Position numbers and translations under genes: made by a program
Part shown: piece by piece, positions 16,444-23,677 of the stretch
Numbering within the stretch: the stretch's first letter is position 1
Layout: each line of letters starts with the position of its first letter
Source: a virus
Length of the DNA stretch: 23,677 bases
Direction: 5' to 3' (one strand)
IMG/VR virus record: IMGVR_UViG_3300000547_000007
Span: 1-23,677 of that record
Notes under the pieces: model-generated
What the model was told of the DNA's origin: nothing
The model's input: the letters and a program-made list of their open reading frames with translations, nothing else
Database searches by the model: none

Positions 16444-16592
16444 AGCAACAGAGAAATCCCAAGTACAACAAACACAAACAACATGAATCCTACAAAAACT
16501 GATAAAGTAACAAATATTGAAACCTGAACTTTATAAGATAATCGGTAATGCCATGTCCTAGCAATCAATATTAAATCCTTCCTGCTAATCAT
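16440..16592 (-). CDS. Small single-pass membrane protein, 50 aa
   Basis: The ATG at 16592 overlaps the primase stop as ATGA, and the TGA overlaps the next ATG in the same way. A longer form from 16640 would sit inside the primase gene. The first 21 residues are basic (MISRKDLILIARTWHYRLSY), then a long hydrophobic segment (about 22-50) runs to the end: one membrane helix, probably with the N-terminus inside by the positive-inside rule. It sits in the middle of a replication operon; it could tether replication proteins or act as a toxin or lysis factor, but there is no direct evidence. Confidence 0.65.
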   Translation of the reverse strand: MISRKDLILIARTWHYRLSYKVQVSIFVTLSVFVGFMLFVFVVLGISLLL

Positions 16593-18997
16593 ATCTTTAA
16601 TTGAGTATTTACCTCTTCTATCGGTTTTATCCTCATCCATCTACCAGCCATGTCTCTATCCTCCTCTGGATCAGCTCCTGATATATATCTCGCATACGAA
16701 ACCATCCACTTATTAAACTTGGCTCTGGATATTGTCATCTTTGACTTCGGGCCGTAGTCTGGATATTCACTGACAAAACTTTGGTAGCATTCATTAAGCC
16801 TAATCTTAGCACCAACAACTAGATTCTCATCCTTCTTGGTCCCGTTGATTAACCCACACCACTCAATGAACTCATGGCTTGTCTCAGCAGATAGGTGTCT
16901 AATTCTAAGGTTCACGAACTTACTCTTCACTAGCCCAGTCCTTAAGAAACCAGATAGACATGAAATCATGTAGTTGTCAAACTTACACCACTCATCATCA
17001 TCCCAATCACTAAACATAAGCCTACCAAATTCATCTTGCGGAGTAAAGTTCTTATGGTAGAACTGATGCAGCTCTAGCTCCCACTTTCTCCTCTCAAAAG
17101 AGTTCCCAGCACCTTTGATGGCGTAGTTAGTTGTGATTGAAATCTTCGGTGACTTACTGAATGGAATCTTGATTGCGTCCTTGTTCTTCTTCTCCAAGGT
17201 AAGTCCCTCTGTAACTACAGAGAACAGCCGCTCAAAGTCAAAGTGCTTTTTGACATCATCAAATACCAATACCTGAGTGTCGGCAGACACTAACTGATAT
17301 GCAAATGATCTCTCAAACGTAAATGACTTACCGTCAATTGTAACAACCTTCTTCATTTGACTTAGCGCATTCATCATAAGCCCCTTACCAGTTCCTCCCT
17401 CTGGGTTATCACTAATAACCTCGTCATTGAGAATCACTGCTGGACTGTAAGATAAGCTTTTATATCCATGAAGCAAGTAGCCAATTGTTGATTCCATTGA
17501 TTCCTTTCTGCTTTCATCATTAGCGGATATATTTCCAACGAACTTACTAAAGTCGCATTCATGTGAATCGCACTCCTTGTATGTTCTGTCAATGATGTGG
17601 TCCTTCCAAACATATCCACCCAAGTCTAGGTAGTCAATCTTCTCAACACCATCCTTTGTAACTCTTACAGCACAGTTCTTGTAGTACAAGTAAGACGAGC
17701 TCTTGGTATCCTCAATGAAGAAGACATCAATCGTTGACAGAAGCGTCAAGAAGTCCTCCTTGAAGAACCTAGTTTGGTCCGCAAAGTAATTGTAGATGGA
17801 TATGTCATCTAAGTCTAAAAGGTAGTTAAGCACAAAGTCTTTGATAGCCTTCTCATCAGTGTGGTCAATCAGGTTGTTAGTAACCTTCACAAACACATAG
17901 TTCTTACTTCCCTCTGGGCAGTACTTGTAGAAACCATTCTCCTCCAAAAACTTCTTGAACAAGAAATGAATAATCTTTATCGTTCCCTTTTCATTCTTTG
18001 TCCAAAACTGATGATTACTGCTGTCTTCTTCTACCTTGTTCAGGACTGATTCAATTGTTCTATCGTCAAGGTCGGTGTCCTGAAGATCTTGCTTTATCTC
18101 CTTCCTTGACGCTCCCCTCTTTAGCTTTACACGTATATCATTAACACGATCCTCATCCTCGTAGTACTTTGTACCAAAGTTCTGAGTCTTGGCGTAAGCA
18201 CTGTCTATTGTTCTAGATATTTCCCTAAGAGGAAAATCCTTAGACGCATACTGATTTAGCACATACGAAGCTAAACTCTTATTAACACCGAAGTCATTGA
18301 ATGCTGAAGCTAGTATGTATGTATTCTGATTCCGCTGGCCTTCCGCCATTGGATACTTTTTCTCCCACCACTTCACCAAGATTTCAACAATCTTATTCTC
18401 GTCAGTGATTGGTATGGTTGGCAAATCCCTCATAGAATTCACCTCCTTGTACTCTCGGTCATCAATCCTATCCCAAACAGATGAGTTCTCGTTCACATAG
18501 ATTAGGGGGTCATAGGACTCGTAGCACACCCTGCTAATGTTCTTTGAGGTAGGGTCAAAGTAATCGCTCTGGAAATGATTCTCCAAAGAAAGGAAGTAGC
18601 TGACATGATCCTCTGGAACCGCAGGTATTTTAACCAAAACCTTTAAGCCATTCCCAGATGGTGATACAAATACTGAGTACACATACTTGTCTTTGGTCAA
18701 CCTTTCCTTCTCCTCAAGCATCTGCTGCTTCTTCTCGTAGCCATCAAAGTCTAGGCATATTATCCCAGAGTGAGACATAAGTGAACTATCATTCCTCTTC
18801 GTGAACTCACCAGAAAAACAAATCGCTGGAAGATTTTTCTTCAACTCGTTTCTCTCAGCCTTGTCGGACTCCTGCCTAATTCTCTTGACTATCTCCTTGC
18901 TAGAACCAGTCTTTATTCTTTCAAGTATGACACCAACATCCCTATGGAAGGGAGCCTCAGTGTCTTTTATGTTTTTGAATATCGTGACTTTTTTCAT
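16589..18997 (-). CDS. Bifunctional primase-helicase (BT4734/VirE_N-type primase plus SF3 helicase), 802 aa
   Basis: The N-terminal 1-180 matches the BT4734-like/VirE_N primase-type domain: IICLDFDG with D83 and D85, VSPSGNGLKVLVKI (111-124) and ISRVCYESYDP (154-164). Residues 200-275 resemble a PriCT-type linker (NQNTYILASAFNDFGV). The C-terminal part is an SF3-type D5-like helicase: Walker A EGGTGKGL with K538, Walker B VLVFDDV with D580/D581, sensor SITTNY with N624, and ERRKWELEL supplying an arginine finger. The protein would prime and unwind DNA at the replication fork. Length and order are usual for such phage and plasmid fusions. Its leader contains four phased copies of a heptamer (19012-19050), a likely control or origin element. 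Confidence 0.92.
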   Translation of the reverse strand: MKKVTIFKNIKDTEAPFHRDVGVILERIKTGSSKEIVKRIRQESDKAERNELKKNLPAICFSGEFTKRNDSSLMSHSGIICLDFDGYEKKQQMLEEKERLTKDKYVYSVFVSPSGNGLKVLVKIPAVPEDHVSYFLSLENHFQSDYFDPTSKNISRVCYESYDPLIYVNENSSVWDRIDDREYKEVNSMRDLPTIPITDENKIVEILVKWWEKKYPMAEGQRNQNTYILASAFNDFGVNKSLASYVLNQYASKDFPLREISRTIDSAYAKTQNFGTKYYEDEDRVNDIRVKLKRGASRKEIKQDLQDTDLDDRTIESVLNKVEEDSSNHQFWTKNEKGTIKIIHFLFKKFLEENGFYKYCPEGSKNYVFVKVTNNLIDHTDEKAIKDFVLNYLLDLDDISIYNYFADQTRFFKEDFLTLLSTIDVFFIEDTKSSSYLYYKNCAVRVTKDGVEKIDYLDLGGYVWKDHIIDRTYKECDSHECDFSKFVGNISANDESRKESMESTIGYLLHGYKSLSYSPAVILNDEVISDNPEGGTGKGLMMNALSQMKKVVTIDGKSFTFERSFAYQLVSADTQVLVFDDVKKHFDFERLFSVVTEGLTLEKKNKDAIKIPFSKSPKISITTNYAIKGAGNSFERRKWELELHQFYHKNFTPQDEFGRLMFSDWDDDEWCKFDNYMISCLSGFLRTGLVKSKFVNLRIRHLSAETSHEFIEWCGLINGTKKDENLVVGAKIRLNECYQSFVSEYPDYGPKSKMTISRAKFNKWMVSYARYISGADPEEDRDMAGRWMRIKPIEEVNTQLKI

Positions 18998-19530: not shown

Positions 19531-20256
19531 CTACACTTCATCTTGGTAGTAGAACTGGTCTATGTACTCAGTTGAGTCCTCACTAAAGAACTTATTGTAA
19601 ACCTCAATCGCTCGCTCTACCTTCTCAGCACCTCGCTCAAGGCTCTCCTCACTGACTGAGTAAACACCCATCATGTGAGTGTCTTTGTCAATCACAATAA
19701 ACCTCAATGGCTTACCGAAGATCTGCTGATATATGTACGCCTGACTGTCGTAGTTGTAGTCTCTTACACTCCACTTAAACCTGTCAATGTTTGACGAAGT
19801 CTTTAGGTCATATAAGCAATCACTGCCAACAATGTCAGCCTTACCTTTCCATGGTAAACCATGTAGCTCTGTAGTTCCTGGAACTTCAAACTCATCAGCA
19901 CTGTAGATCATCTCAAAGATGTCTACGTTCTGCTTGATCTTAGAGACCAATAGTTCAGCCTCAGCCTTCTCTGAAGAGAGTAATGCTACTGGTAGTTCAT
20001 TTTCTGCTAAGAACTCCTTATAAGCCTTAGTATTGCGGCTAGAGACATCCACCCATGGAACATCCTGAGCCTTCTCGGGCTCTAATATAAGTTGATGGAA
20101 GTATCTTCCAAACAAAAAGTTCTTATTATCTTCTTTTTTATGACCGAAGAGTTTTGGATTCTTCAGCAATGTTCCTATGTCGGAGTTGGATAAGTAGTTC
20201 TTACCCACTCCGTTATAGTACTCATTATCATCTCTTAGTTTATCAATTACTTCCAT
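19531..20256 (-). CDS. PD-(D/E)XK exonuclease, RecE/Cas4-like (DUF3799 type), 241 aa
   Basis: All core residues of the RecB-type nuclease family are visible (numbered from ATG 20256): FGRYFHQLILEP with H54, the ELHGLPWKGKAD block with E130 and D141, YDLKTS with D150 and K152, and the SQAYIYQ helix with Q172. An N-terminal LSNSDIGTLLKNP is typical of RecE-like and DUF3799 proteins. It would resect double-stranded DNA ends for the annealing protein encoded just before it. The start at 20256 follows an A-rich leader; the in-frame ATG at 20283 would add nine residues. It overlaps the annealing gene by 14 bp. Confidence 0.88.
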   Translation of the reverse strand: MEVIDKLRDDNEYYNGVGKNYLSNSDIGTLLKNPKLFGHKKEDNKNFLFGRYFHQLILEPEKAQDVPWVDVSSRNTKAYKEFLAENELPVALLSSEKAEAELLVSKIKQNVDIFEMIYSADEFEVPGTTELHGLPWKGKADIVGSDCLYDLKTSSNIDRFKWSVRDYNYDSQAYIYQQIFGKPLRFIVIDKDTHMMGVYSVSEESLERGAEKVERAIEVYNKFFSEDSTEYIDQFYYQDEV

Positions 20257-20818
20257 GATGTTTTTTGATTTCTTTTTTAACATCTGACACTACTTCATAC
20301 TTGGTCTCAAGCATCTTGACAATCTCAGAGAATGGCTTGTCCTTGTTGGCAGACACATACTTAAGCACCTTGCTGTAGTTATCATCGCCAATGTTTAGCT
20401 TGATGTGTCTCTGCTCTTTCGGAGCTGACACCTCCTCAGTTGGTAAATCCTCTCCAGCGTAGATGTATAACCCCAATCCATGTCTAGCCAATGCCTTAGT
20501 AAGACTTCTTTGTATGCTAGAGTTGACATGGAAAGATGTGATCTTATCTACCCTAATAGATTGGTTCCTGTAGTCCATGATTGGCAAATACTCAATCATC
20601 TCCATACCCTCAATGGTTACACCAGTTTTCACCCAACCAGTCATACCATCATGGTGGTAGTTAAACCCATCCTCATTTTCGTAAACCTTGTACGTTGCTG
20701 TTGGATAGTTCTGCTTTGCCACAGACCATGCCCATGCCCAAGGCAAGTAGCTTAGTCCATTCTTCTTCTCGACCTTGTCATTGACATTGATCTTGCTAAG
20801 TGTTTCAAATACGCTCAT
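20243..20818 (-). CDS. Sak-type single-strand annealing protein (DUF1071), 191 aa
   Basis: The N-terminal 125 residues match the DUF1071/Sak family of Rad52-like annealing proteins: LSYLPWAWAWSVAKQNYP (22-39), then KVYENEDGFNYHHDGMTGWV, MEMIEYLPIMDYRNQSI, and the helix SSIQRSLTKALARHGLGLYI followed by YAGEDLP. The C-terminal 60 residues are charged and probably flexible. With the downstream nuclease it forms a two-component recombination system (end resection and annealing) similar in plan to lambda Exo-Beta; the SSB follows. Overlaps of 14 bp on both sides suggest coupled translation. Confidence 0.9.
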   Translation of the reverse strand: MSVFETLSKINVNDKVEKKNGLSYLPWAWAWSVAKQNYPTATYKVYENEDGFNYHHDGMTGWVKTGVTIEGMEMIEYLPIMDYRNQSIRVDKITSFHVNSSIQRSLTKALARHGLGLYIYAGEDLPTEEVSAPKEQRHIKLNIGDDNYSKVLKYVSANKDKPFSEIVKMLETKYEVVSDVKKEIKKHHGSN

Positions 20819-22302: not shown

Positions 22303-22482
22303 TTAATCCTCAAAATCTAAGAAGAACTCGTATTCACAATTCAAGCATCTATGTTGTTGCTTATCTCCTGATATTTCTTCAAATTCTGTTCTACTGCCAC
22401 ATTTGGTACAAGTTGTTGGTTGGGAATTATCTATATTTATATAAGTATCTAATTCGTGAATTGATTTTATCTCTAATTTCAT
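22303..22482 (-). CDS. Zinc-ribbon microprotein, 59 aa
   Basis: The protein contains two CxxC knuckles, TTCTKCGSR and HRCLNCEYEF, separated by 17 residues, which is a zinc-ribbon arrangement. The N-terminus is MKLEIKSIHELDTYINIDNS, and the end is acidic (FFLDFED). Small zinc ribbons of this kind often bind nucleic acids or RNA polymerase; its role is unknown. The sequence before the start (CTTTTTTATTATG) closely matches the leaders of the two cassette genes to its right, and it starts 53 nt after a G|TT core, so it may be the remains of a further cassette that has lost its own recombination site. No complementary sequence was found after its stop. Confidence 0.7.
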   Translation of the reverse strand: MKLEIKSIHELDTYINIDNSQPTTCTKCGSRTEFEEISGDKQQHRCLNCEYEFFLDFED

Positions 22483-22528
22483 AATAAAAAAGTTTTGGAG
22501 TGAAATATGTTTCGAGCATTGAAACGCT

Positions 22529-22591
22529 CGACAACAGTCGCTAAAAGCTACTCGTACCTCGCTGCATTTAGCTTTGTGTTGTGTGTAATAC
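22529..22591 (-). other. attC-like recombination site 3
   Basis: In minus-strand order: GTATTACACACAAC (22591-22578, R''-like, overlapping the stop codon of the 137-aa gene), GCTAAATGC (22572-22564), a 15-nt loop, GCTTTTAGC (22548-22540), GACT, then the core G|TTGTCG with the cut expected between 22535 and 22534. The first element is complementary (13 of 14, the other a G-T pair) to the start of its own cassette at 23041-23028, as expected when an integron cassette is linearised. Confidence 0.65.
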
Positions 22592-23004
22592 TACTCTGTA
22601 CCTAACCTTTTAAGTTTCTGTACTAAATGTAAAGCAAGGGTCATGTACTCTTTAACTTGCTCTTCTGTTGGTAAATCATAATCGTAACTACTAATCGCTT
22701 GAAGAGTATCGCAACCAATACAGCTTCCATAGTAAGTATCTGTCATTACATAATCTTCAACGCTTGGTTGGTAAGTGTCAGTAGGTATAATGAATATCTG
22801 TGTGCCTTGGTAATTACCATCATCAATTACAGTCATTTTATCCAAAGCCCATCCGCTATAAGTGGTTGCTTCGGGTATGCACAATTCAAATATCTTTTTC
22901 ACAATAGTTTCATAACTATCGTATTCGTCTTGTTTTGTCGTTTTGAAATACTCTTCAAGCTTATGCTTGTTTTCTTCCCATTGCTTTACTAATTCTGTTA
23001 TCAT
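22591..23004 (-). CDS. Conserved phage-type hypothetical protein in a cassette, 137 aa
   Basis: The start at 23004 is chosen because the upstream in-frame ATG (23043) would lie in the recombination site. The protein has a helical N-terminus (WEENKHKLEEYFKTTKQDEY), a middle block with ITVIDD-like strands, and the distinctive GTQIFIIPTDTYQPSVEDYV and TYYGSCIGCDTLQAI segments, then a C-terminal helix (EEQVKEYMTLALHLVQKLKR). This set of blocks recurs in uncharacterised phage proteins. The GSCIGCDTL pair of Cys might bind metal. It is the only gene of a 506-bp unit flanked by complementary GTTGTGTGTA-type sequences, so it may be a mobile cassette gene. Confidence 0.75.
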   Translation of the reverse strand: MITELVKQWEENKHKLEEYFKTTKQDEYDSYETIVKKIFELCIPEATTYSGWALDKMTVIDDGNYQGTQIFIIPTDTYQPSVEDYVMTDTYYGSCIGCDTLQAISSYDYDLPTEEQVKEYMTLALHLVQKLKRLGTE

Positions 23005-23034
23005 AATAAAATTTCGTTTATAAACCCGTACTAC

Positions 23035-23176
23035 ACACAACAATGCGTATAAGTAATAGCGGGTTTTGTGTTAATATTTAAGCCCAATTCTTTTTTCAAT
23101 CTTTGTAGTCAAACGAAAAGTAGTTGCTTCTAATCCGCTACTACTCATACGCTCGACCGTTGTAAAACATAGGCGG
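23035..23176 (-). other. attC-like recombination site 2
   Basis: In minus-strand order: CCGCCTA and TTTTACAAC (23176-23159), then GCGTATGAGTAGTAGCGG (23152-23135), a 72-nt loop, CCGCTATTACTTATACGC (23062-23045), ATT and core G|TTGTGT (cut 23041/23040). The 18-bp arms pair fully on the minus strand with two G-T wobbles, whereas the plus strand has two A-C mismatches. Strand bias in folding is a feature of attC sites, which recombine as one folded strand. Confidence 0.7.
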
Positions 23177-23258
23177 CTGTTCATCCGTACTTGAAGTCAC
23201 AATCTGTGACCACTATTTCTGAATGAACGCTATACCTCACCGCCTACGAATTTTACAA
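23041..23258 (-). other. Cassette-like unit without a convincing gene
   Basis: This 218-bp unit opens GTTGTAAAA and TAGGCGG and has the complementary CCGCCTA and TTTTACAAC at 23159-23176. Between them are two further nested inverted repeats: ATGAAC/GTTCAT (23223-23228 with 23179-23184) and GTCACA/TGTGAC (23196-23201 with 23205-23210), so the enclosed 100 nt can fold into a long multi-stem structure. The only frame (37 codons from a mid-unit ATG) runs through the recombination site and is not believable. It may encode a structured RNA or a promoter element, or be an empty cassette. Confidence 0.55.
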
Positions 23259-23384
23259 CAATAAATAAAGAAAATAAGCAAGTGGGAATCACGCCAACTT
23301 TCAACCACAGTTCGCAACCGTATGCACTCGGATATATTTGTCTGCTCATTCTCTTACTCTCTTTATTCGTTTCCGTTAGCCACC
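23253..23384 (-). other. attC-like recombination site 1
   Basis: In minus-strand order: GGTGGCTAAC (23384-23375, R''-like, overlapping the last two codons and stop of the 64-aa gene), AATAAAGAGAGTAAG (23367-23353), a 74-nt loop, CTTATTTTCTTTATT (23278-23264), TATT and core G|TTGTAA (cut 23259/23258). The 15-nt arms pair completely with two G-T wobbles. The R''-like element is the exact complement of the unit's own start, GTTAGCCACC at 23589-23580. Confidence 0.7.
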
Positions 23385-23570
23385 ATTTGAAAGACACACT
23401 TTGAATTTACCTCGTTTTGTGTCTGTCATAATAAATGTCATAACTTTTTCACTTGTTCCGTCCTTTTGTGAGATAAGTGTGTCAAATTGCTTATAGTTAC
23501 AATTCCCATCTATACAAAATGCTTCTTTCAAGAAGTTCTCTAAATCCTTTATTCTTTCTATGTCAGTCAT
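23376..23570 (-). CDS. Hypothetical protein in a cassette, 64 aa
   Basis: The start at 23570 (MTDIERIKDLENFLKEAFCI) is chosen over an upstream ATG at 23603 that lies in the recombination palindrome. A helical N-terminus is followed by DGNCNYKQFDTLISQKDGTS and strands VMTFIMTDTKRGKFKVCLSN. Three Cys are present without a clear metal pattern. No family is recognised. The stop codon lies within the recombination site, and the leader (GTTTTTATTATGA) is shared with the neighbouring cassette genes. Confidence 0.65.
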   Translation of the reverse strand: MTDIERIKDLENFLKEAFCIDGNCNYKQFDTLISQKDGTSEKVMTFIMTDTKRGKFKVCLSNGG

Positions 23571-23582
23571 AATAAAAACGGT

Positions 23583-23618
23583 GGCTAACAAAGTATATAG
23601 CACATAGCCTGTTAGCCA
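23583..23618 (-). other. attC-like recombination site 0 (short form)
   Basis: TGGCTAACA and TGTTAGCCA pair perfectly (9 bp; 23618-23610 with 23590-23582 on the minus strand) around 19 nt and end at a core G|TTAGCC (cut 23589/23588). It is shorter than usual attC sites and inner arms are weak. GCACAT (23635-23630) and ATGTGC (23605-23600) give an alternative, interleaved pairing. The palindrome overlaps the stop codon of the gene to its right. Confidence 0.5.
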
Positions 23619-23677
23619 TTTTTGAAACCATGTGCAGTTATTAAATTATTTTCTCTTTTGCTTGGGTTCTGTGATAG
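23612..23677 (-). CDS. C-terminal end of a further cassette gene (partial)
   Basis: From the window edge an open frame reads LSQNPSKRENNLITAHGFKN, then G and TAA at 23612-23614. The other two frames close within 14 codons. Like the 64-aa gene, it ends ...NG-stop inside a GGCTAAC element, which supports its being the last codons of another cassette gene. Nothing can be said about its function. Confidence 0.5.
   Translation of the reverse strand, partial: LSQNPSKRENNLITAHGFKNG

Follow-up and report, generated by a model that had tools for sequence, protein, structure and literature searches.

The window, by which we mean the whole stretch of DNA analysed, is the entire IMG/VR record IMGVR_UViG_3300000547_000007, a linear sequence of 23,677 bases. 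Its phage part carries genes for a primase and a single-strand annealing protein, and its right end consists of three consecutive units on the + strand, each running from G|TT to AAC, with a fourth GTT beyond them at 23611 (Table 1). Four attC-like sites were recognized in this array and no tyrosine recombinase was found in the 23.7-kb record, in agreement with an earlier interpretation made from the letters of the DNA (hereafter the sequence-only reading), which had described an integron-like cassette array lacking an integrase. A second contig, IMGVR_UViG_3300000517_000029 (L001, 14.7 kb), is identical to the right part of the window and stops at the same final base within the array; such a stop would be expected if variation among cassettes interrupts assembly.

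Table 1. Positions of the phage genes, cassettes and attC-like sites in the window
Feature	Position	Strand	Remarks
Primase, BT4734-like/DUF5906	16589..18997	(-)	Phage backbone marker
Sak-type single-strand annealing protein, phage	20243..20818	(-)	
Leftmost attC-like site	22533..22580	(+)	Short hairpin between AAC (22533-22535) and G|TT (22578-22580); here phage DNA meets the array
Cassette 1 body	22578..23041	(+)	R' GTTGTGTGTAATAC to R'' GTACTACACACAAC; ends pair
Cassette 1 gene, 138 aa, phrog_12588	22591..23007	(-)	Antisense to cassette direction
Long-type attC-like site	23039..23161	(+)	117 nt from AAC to GTT
Cassette 2, about 98 nt	23159..23259	(+)	No ORF; strong palindrome in itself, from fold (z -3.8) and sequence
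Third site	23257..23377	(+)	Inner arms imperfect; missed by R1; fold at shuffle level
Cassette 3	23375..23589	(+)	R' GTTAGCCACC to R'' GGTGGCTAAC; inverted repeat
Cassette 3 gene, 64 aa	23376..23570	(-)	Without family match
Fourth site, very short	23587..23613	(+)	Starts the next cassette, which runs off the contig; from sequence and fold

The complementary ends attributed to all three units were recovered: those of unit 1 form an inverted repeat (22577-22591 with 23028-23042, 93% complementary), as do those of unit 3 (23375-23388 with 23576-23589, 93% complementary), and those of unit 2 were matched by sequence (GTTGTAAAA..TAGGCGG with CCGCCTA..TTTTACAAC). A detector requiring both an AAC-hairpin-GTT site and a matching unit end found two units in 22480-23677 and none in the rest of the window, and at strict settings it found none in each of 100 dinucleotide shuffles. 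The inner hairpin arms proposed for every site hold as a conserved structure of the site class, but within the window they are clear as structure at only one of the four sites. Folding of the minus strand, suggested as a check, gave a similarly mixed outcome, since the long-type site is stable (DNA fold z = -3.5) and scores 113.9 bits with R1, a covariance model built from relatives with this site itself in the training set, but the hairpin of the leftmost site is weak (z about -1.2) and the third site does not fold better than its shuffles. Given these weak or shuffle-level folds, two of the four sites may be degenerate. The fold of unit 2 is beaten by only one of 200 shuffles, and at the fourth site only 21 nt separate AAC and GTT. 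The loop of the leftmost site, TCGTACCTC, is also present in sites of the Polaribacter phage P12002L and in contig L100. The array had no match in Rfam, nor, by blastn, among INPHARED phages and PLSDB plasmids.

The layout of one gene per unit applies to units 1 and 3 but not to unit 2. The orientation of the genes had to be corrected: when the + strand of the window is taken for the direction of the cassettes, the genes of both coding cassettes are antisense, whereas in chromosomal arrays of the same class 79 of 87 cassettes have a sense gene. Taking the strand of the 138-aa gene as the cassette direction was considered and rejected, since the chromosomal arrays run the other way. The copy of this gene in L104, a Flavobacterium MAG, is likewise inverted. 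The phrog_12588 protein has an invariant YYGSC.GCDTL motif, and it occurs in cassettes, in phages as an ordinary gene, and in Clostridioides phages at about 35% identity. For the 64-aa protein of cassette 3 one distant relative was found, in an IMG/VR contig (L116) that also has R1 sites.

Exchange of cassettes and the class of their sites

The 138-aa gene is present in 14 further IMG/VR contigs. In four of the virus contigs compared (L089-L092) unit 1 was found at about 89% identity over 470 bases, with the match ending at the unit ends, and in L093 the cassette 1 body was found at 79% identity. The arms of the unit are GTTGTGTGTA/TACACACAAC in the window, GTTGTACACA...TGTGTACAAC in L089-L092, GTTAGGCG...CGCCTAAC in L093 and GTTGTCGG...CCGACAAC in L100, so that both arms vary jointly across these contigs, and the flanking sequence differs as well. 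In some other contigs the 138-aa gene lacks cassette ends and stands as an ordinary phage gene. In L104, two cassette copies are identical at 474/474 bases and in the 3' hairpin that follows, and diverge at G|TT on either side; an integron cassette with its site at the 3' end behaves in this way. Arrays have therefore exchanged cassettes at G|TT breakpoints, a property by which integrons are recognized, and the integron-like nature proposed for the cassettes is borne out by the occurrence of the same cassette among different neighbours with similarity ending at G|TT. Four contigs retrieved as exact-pattern matches (L002, L003, L005 and L006) look like chance and were discarded.

An alignment of 13 sites revealed the conserved arrangement AAC-N5-...AGTNGCG...CGCNATT...GTT, with a stem that has 11 of its 15 pairs altered on both sides, a number as high being reached in 0 of 500 shuffles, so that conserved hairpin arms, as known from integrons, are a feature of the class. 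One stem pair is an invariant G.T (G.U in the strand modelled by R1). R1 was built from these 13 sites and applied with a cut-off of E <= 1e-4; since it was trained on long sites, short ones are undercounted, and since about 10 candidates were scored per genome in the large searches, site counts are lower bounds. In the L104 genome R1 detected 63 sites, on a single strand per contig. Matches were found in 131 of 296 Bacteroidota genomes, many with several, compared with one of 200 Pseudomonadota and two of 199 Bacillota genomes, each with a single weak match. The suggestion of a Bacteroidota-specific class in the sequence-only reading agrees with sites nearly confined to this phylum among the three sampled.

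Pairing of R' with R'' was quantified in 90 chromosomal cassettes and averaged 9.6 of 12 positions when both ends came from one cassette versus 6.0 when cassettes were combined at random, and at least 10 of 12 positions paired in 71% of within-cassette comparisons against 1.4% of random pairs. The R'/R'' complementarity of integrons is therefore found in the class and in the window alike, but the integron core GTTRRRY / RYYYAAC is not, as GTTRRRY fits only seven of the 90 R' boxes at the cassette starts, in keeping with the divergent cores noted earlier. Arrays of this class comprise 5-20 sites of uniform orientation with a tyrosine recombinase at the end.

Recombinases and attI-like sites at the array ends

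The best IntI-like protein of L104 led to relatives positioned at array ends, whose genes mostly point toward the array and share the orientation of the cassette genes, with a smaller group being divergent. Many of these regions were picked for proximity and show geometry, not frequency. Among 20 regions selected by recombinase score alone, six had sites (E <= 1e-4), arranged in each case as described above, and 14 had no R1 site, versus 0 of 20 XerC/D regions with sites. Across the 296 genomes, the recombinase was present in 58 of the 77 genomes with at least three sites and in 34 of the 219 others (odds ratio 16.6, p 2e-21), and the association of at least three sites with canonical IntI was negative. 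When only the 30 genomes with at least eight sites were considered, 25 had the recombinase, the other five lacked it at the threshold used, and none had canonical IntI.

The I2 insertion that characterizes integron integrases is lacking in these enzymes, and no such integrase is present in the window. In ten array recombinases the match to TIGR02249 is split in two, with about 180-238 skipped and scores of 190-221 bits against a cut-off of 265, and the spacing from the first Arg box to HxxR is 91-96 residues, compared with 133 in IntI and 98 in Xer. The best PDB matches of the array recombinase are XerA (4a8e, 5hxy), followed by IntI4 in two stretches. In the tree, IntI proteins form a fully supported clade, as do XerC/D; the array recombinases fall on the IntI side, separated from Bacteroidota XerC/D, but not as a single clade.

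At least 22 of 32 recombinase loci have an attI-like G|TT that pairs with the far end of the first cassette. Its distance beyond the recombinase stop is about 50-126 bases, whereas in the divergent group it is 53-93 bases upstream of the start; of the 12 bases that follow it, 10-11 are complementary to R'' of the first site, and the preceding bases are shared (..TATATAAACAA|GTT). Two Chryseobacterium plasmids (NZ_CP041688.1 and NZ_CP094530.1) show 93% identity up to the G and 20% beyond it. An attI beside the integrase with insertion at G|TT, another hallmark of integrons, therefore occurs in relatives and is absent from the window. On this comparative evidence, each cassette extends from TT to G and has its hairpin site at the 3' end, and the conserved attI beside the recombinase holds the first cassette. 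Complete platforms, with a non-IntI recombinase and an attI, are present in chromosomal, plasmid and phage relatives.

Phage carriage and alternative explanations

Among IMG/VR loci with a related recombinase, 41 of 71 have R1 sites alongside, the largest count being 37 sites in one 170-kb record. The viral recombinases fall mostly in one clade (18 of 22), and their neighbours include a T4-type RNA ligase/tail-fibre attachment protein, a helicase, a thymidylate synthase and a clamp-loader-like ATPase, with Terminase_6N in two of 15 records. In the phage group of the window, defined by 79 primase kin, sites are rare (3/79; L066, L068 and L057), and L066 has a cassette with matching ends within its genome. 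Sites of the same class are also carried by the lytic phage P12002L, one attC of which was shown to recombine with attI1 via IntI1 (PMC9892861), although the site tested there may belong to another class.

This last result favours the view that the window holds an ordinary CALIN, whose divergent attC sites are served by a canonical IntI common in Bacteroidota, and full-length IntI above cut-off was indeed found in 84 of the 296 genomes. However, IntI is missing from the site-rich genomes (0/30), the surroundings of 12 canonical Bacteroidota IntI genes, even with longer flanks, gave R1 matches no better than chance (best E 0.01), and attI and arrays adjoin the non-IntI recombinase, making this view unlikely. 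We also hold it improbable that the array lies off the phage, either through an assembly chimera or as host chromosome next to a prophage. Its position at the contig end, the identical contig stopping at the same base and the rarity of sites among phage kin would all fit such an origin, but L001 crosses the same junction with identical sequence, a relative has an internal cassette with matching ends and a lytic phage carries such sites; moreover, the nature of the array is independent of the question of phage carriage.

Two further explanations dispense with cassettes altogether, and we give very little credence to either. The inverted ends of 10-14 nt on every unit are what a transposon or MITE family with terminal inverted repeats would have, but here the ends vary between units yet remain complementary, the units lie head to tail with a single gene each in the same orientation, and the two L104 copies share the 3' hairpin and body and diverge at G|TT. 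Structured intergenic RNA, such as terminators or riboregulators among small phage genes, could account for stable hairpins and for the invariant G.U pair, but the Rfam search gave no match for the array, and the complementary far ends, the exact breakpoints and attI would be left unexplained.

We therefore favour, with a probability of about 0.85, the reading that the right end of the window is an integrase-less cassette cluster in a Bacteroidota phage, drawn from a Bacteroidota-wide integron-like system. The divergent Bacteroidota class guessed at earlier is supported, and the guess understated the case, the window being an integrase-less cluster of an integron-like platform.

Proposed mechanism and relation to known systems

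In the mechanism that we propose, the recombinase would excise cassettes as circles, in which the rejoined R' and R'' ends would make up one folded site, and would insert the excised cassettes at attI. Its linkage to the arrays suggests that this recombinase moves the cassettes, probably acting on folded single strands. The cassettes of the window are presumably still mobile and, since the phage of this contig has no recombinase gene, could be moved by an enzyme of the host or of a co-infecting phage. IntI is held to require I2 for capturing cassettes, and no other protein is held to have this insertion (PMC7790495), so that it is a puzzle how an I2-less enzyme would handle such sites.

The system resembles canonical integrons in that the array recombinase adjoins attI, one-gene cassettes lie head to tail with G|TT breakpoints, R' and R'' are complementary and a hairpin stands at the 3' end of each cassette. 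It differs from them in that the recombinase has no I2 insertion and is placed outside the IntI clade, the R' box is GTTRKCNRYAAT-like instead of GTTRRRY, the attI motif is its own, and the class is nearly restricted to Bacteroidota within our sample. The window array, being without an integrase and in a phage, is similar to CALINs, including the phage ones described in the accessible part of PMC9892861; that part treats the P12002L sites as ordinary attC and describes neither such a recombinase nor a phylum-wide system. With Xer proteins (XerA/XerC/XerD) the array recombinase shares its domain size and best PDB matches, but unlike them it groups with IntI, with full support against Bacteroidota XerC/D, and adjoins cassette arrays. 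We found no prior account of the system in the open literature, though P12002L features in that 2023 paper on integrons in phages (PMC9892861).

IntegronFinder 2.0 reported integrons to be nearly absent from Bacteroidetes (PMC9024848), and nearly half of the Bacteroidota genomes sampled here have cassette sites outside the known core consensus. We lean toward a second kind of integron, without the I2 helix, in Bacteroidota and their large phages, with phages possessing an integrase lineage of their own; if this is true, large phages with a complete platform would be doing their own shuffling of gene cassettes. It was through the acquisition of I2, on the current view, that integron integrases gained the use of folded single-stranded sites (PMC7790495), and an I2-less integron may be a surviving relative of the pre-I2 state of IntI or an independent solution. 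A close I2-less relative at real cassette arrays makes the scenario of I2 acquisition directly testable.

Some observations on the enzymes themselves were also made. Canonical IntI, at the frequency given above, is much commoner in Bacteroidota species genomes than complete-genome surveys suggest, and few attC-like sites are detectable alongside the 12 Bacteroidota IntI genes. Identity to the array recombinase is as high as 49% among Acinetobacter TnpF and many recombinases of rhizobial plasmids; the plasmids concerned include FJ012881.1 and NZ_CP104735.1. Array-type recombinases with an N-terminal extension of about 290 residues, which has no Pfam match in L129, are encoded at L129:165-1895 and L178:6874-8643 and in L196, L197 and L198.
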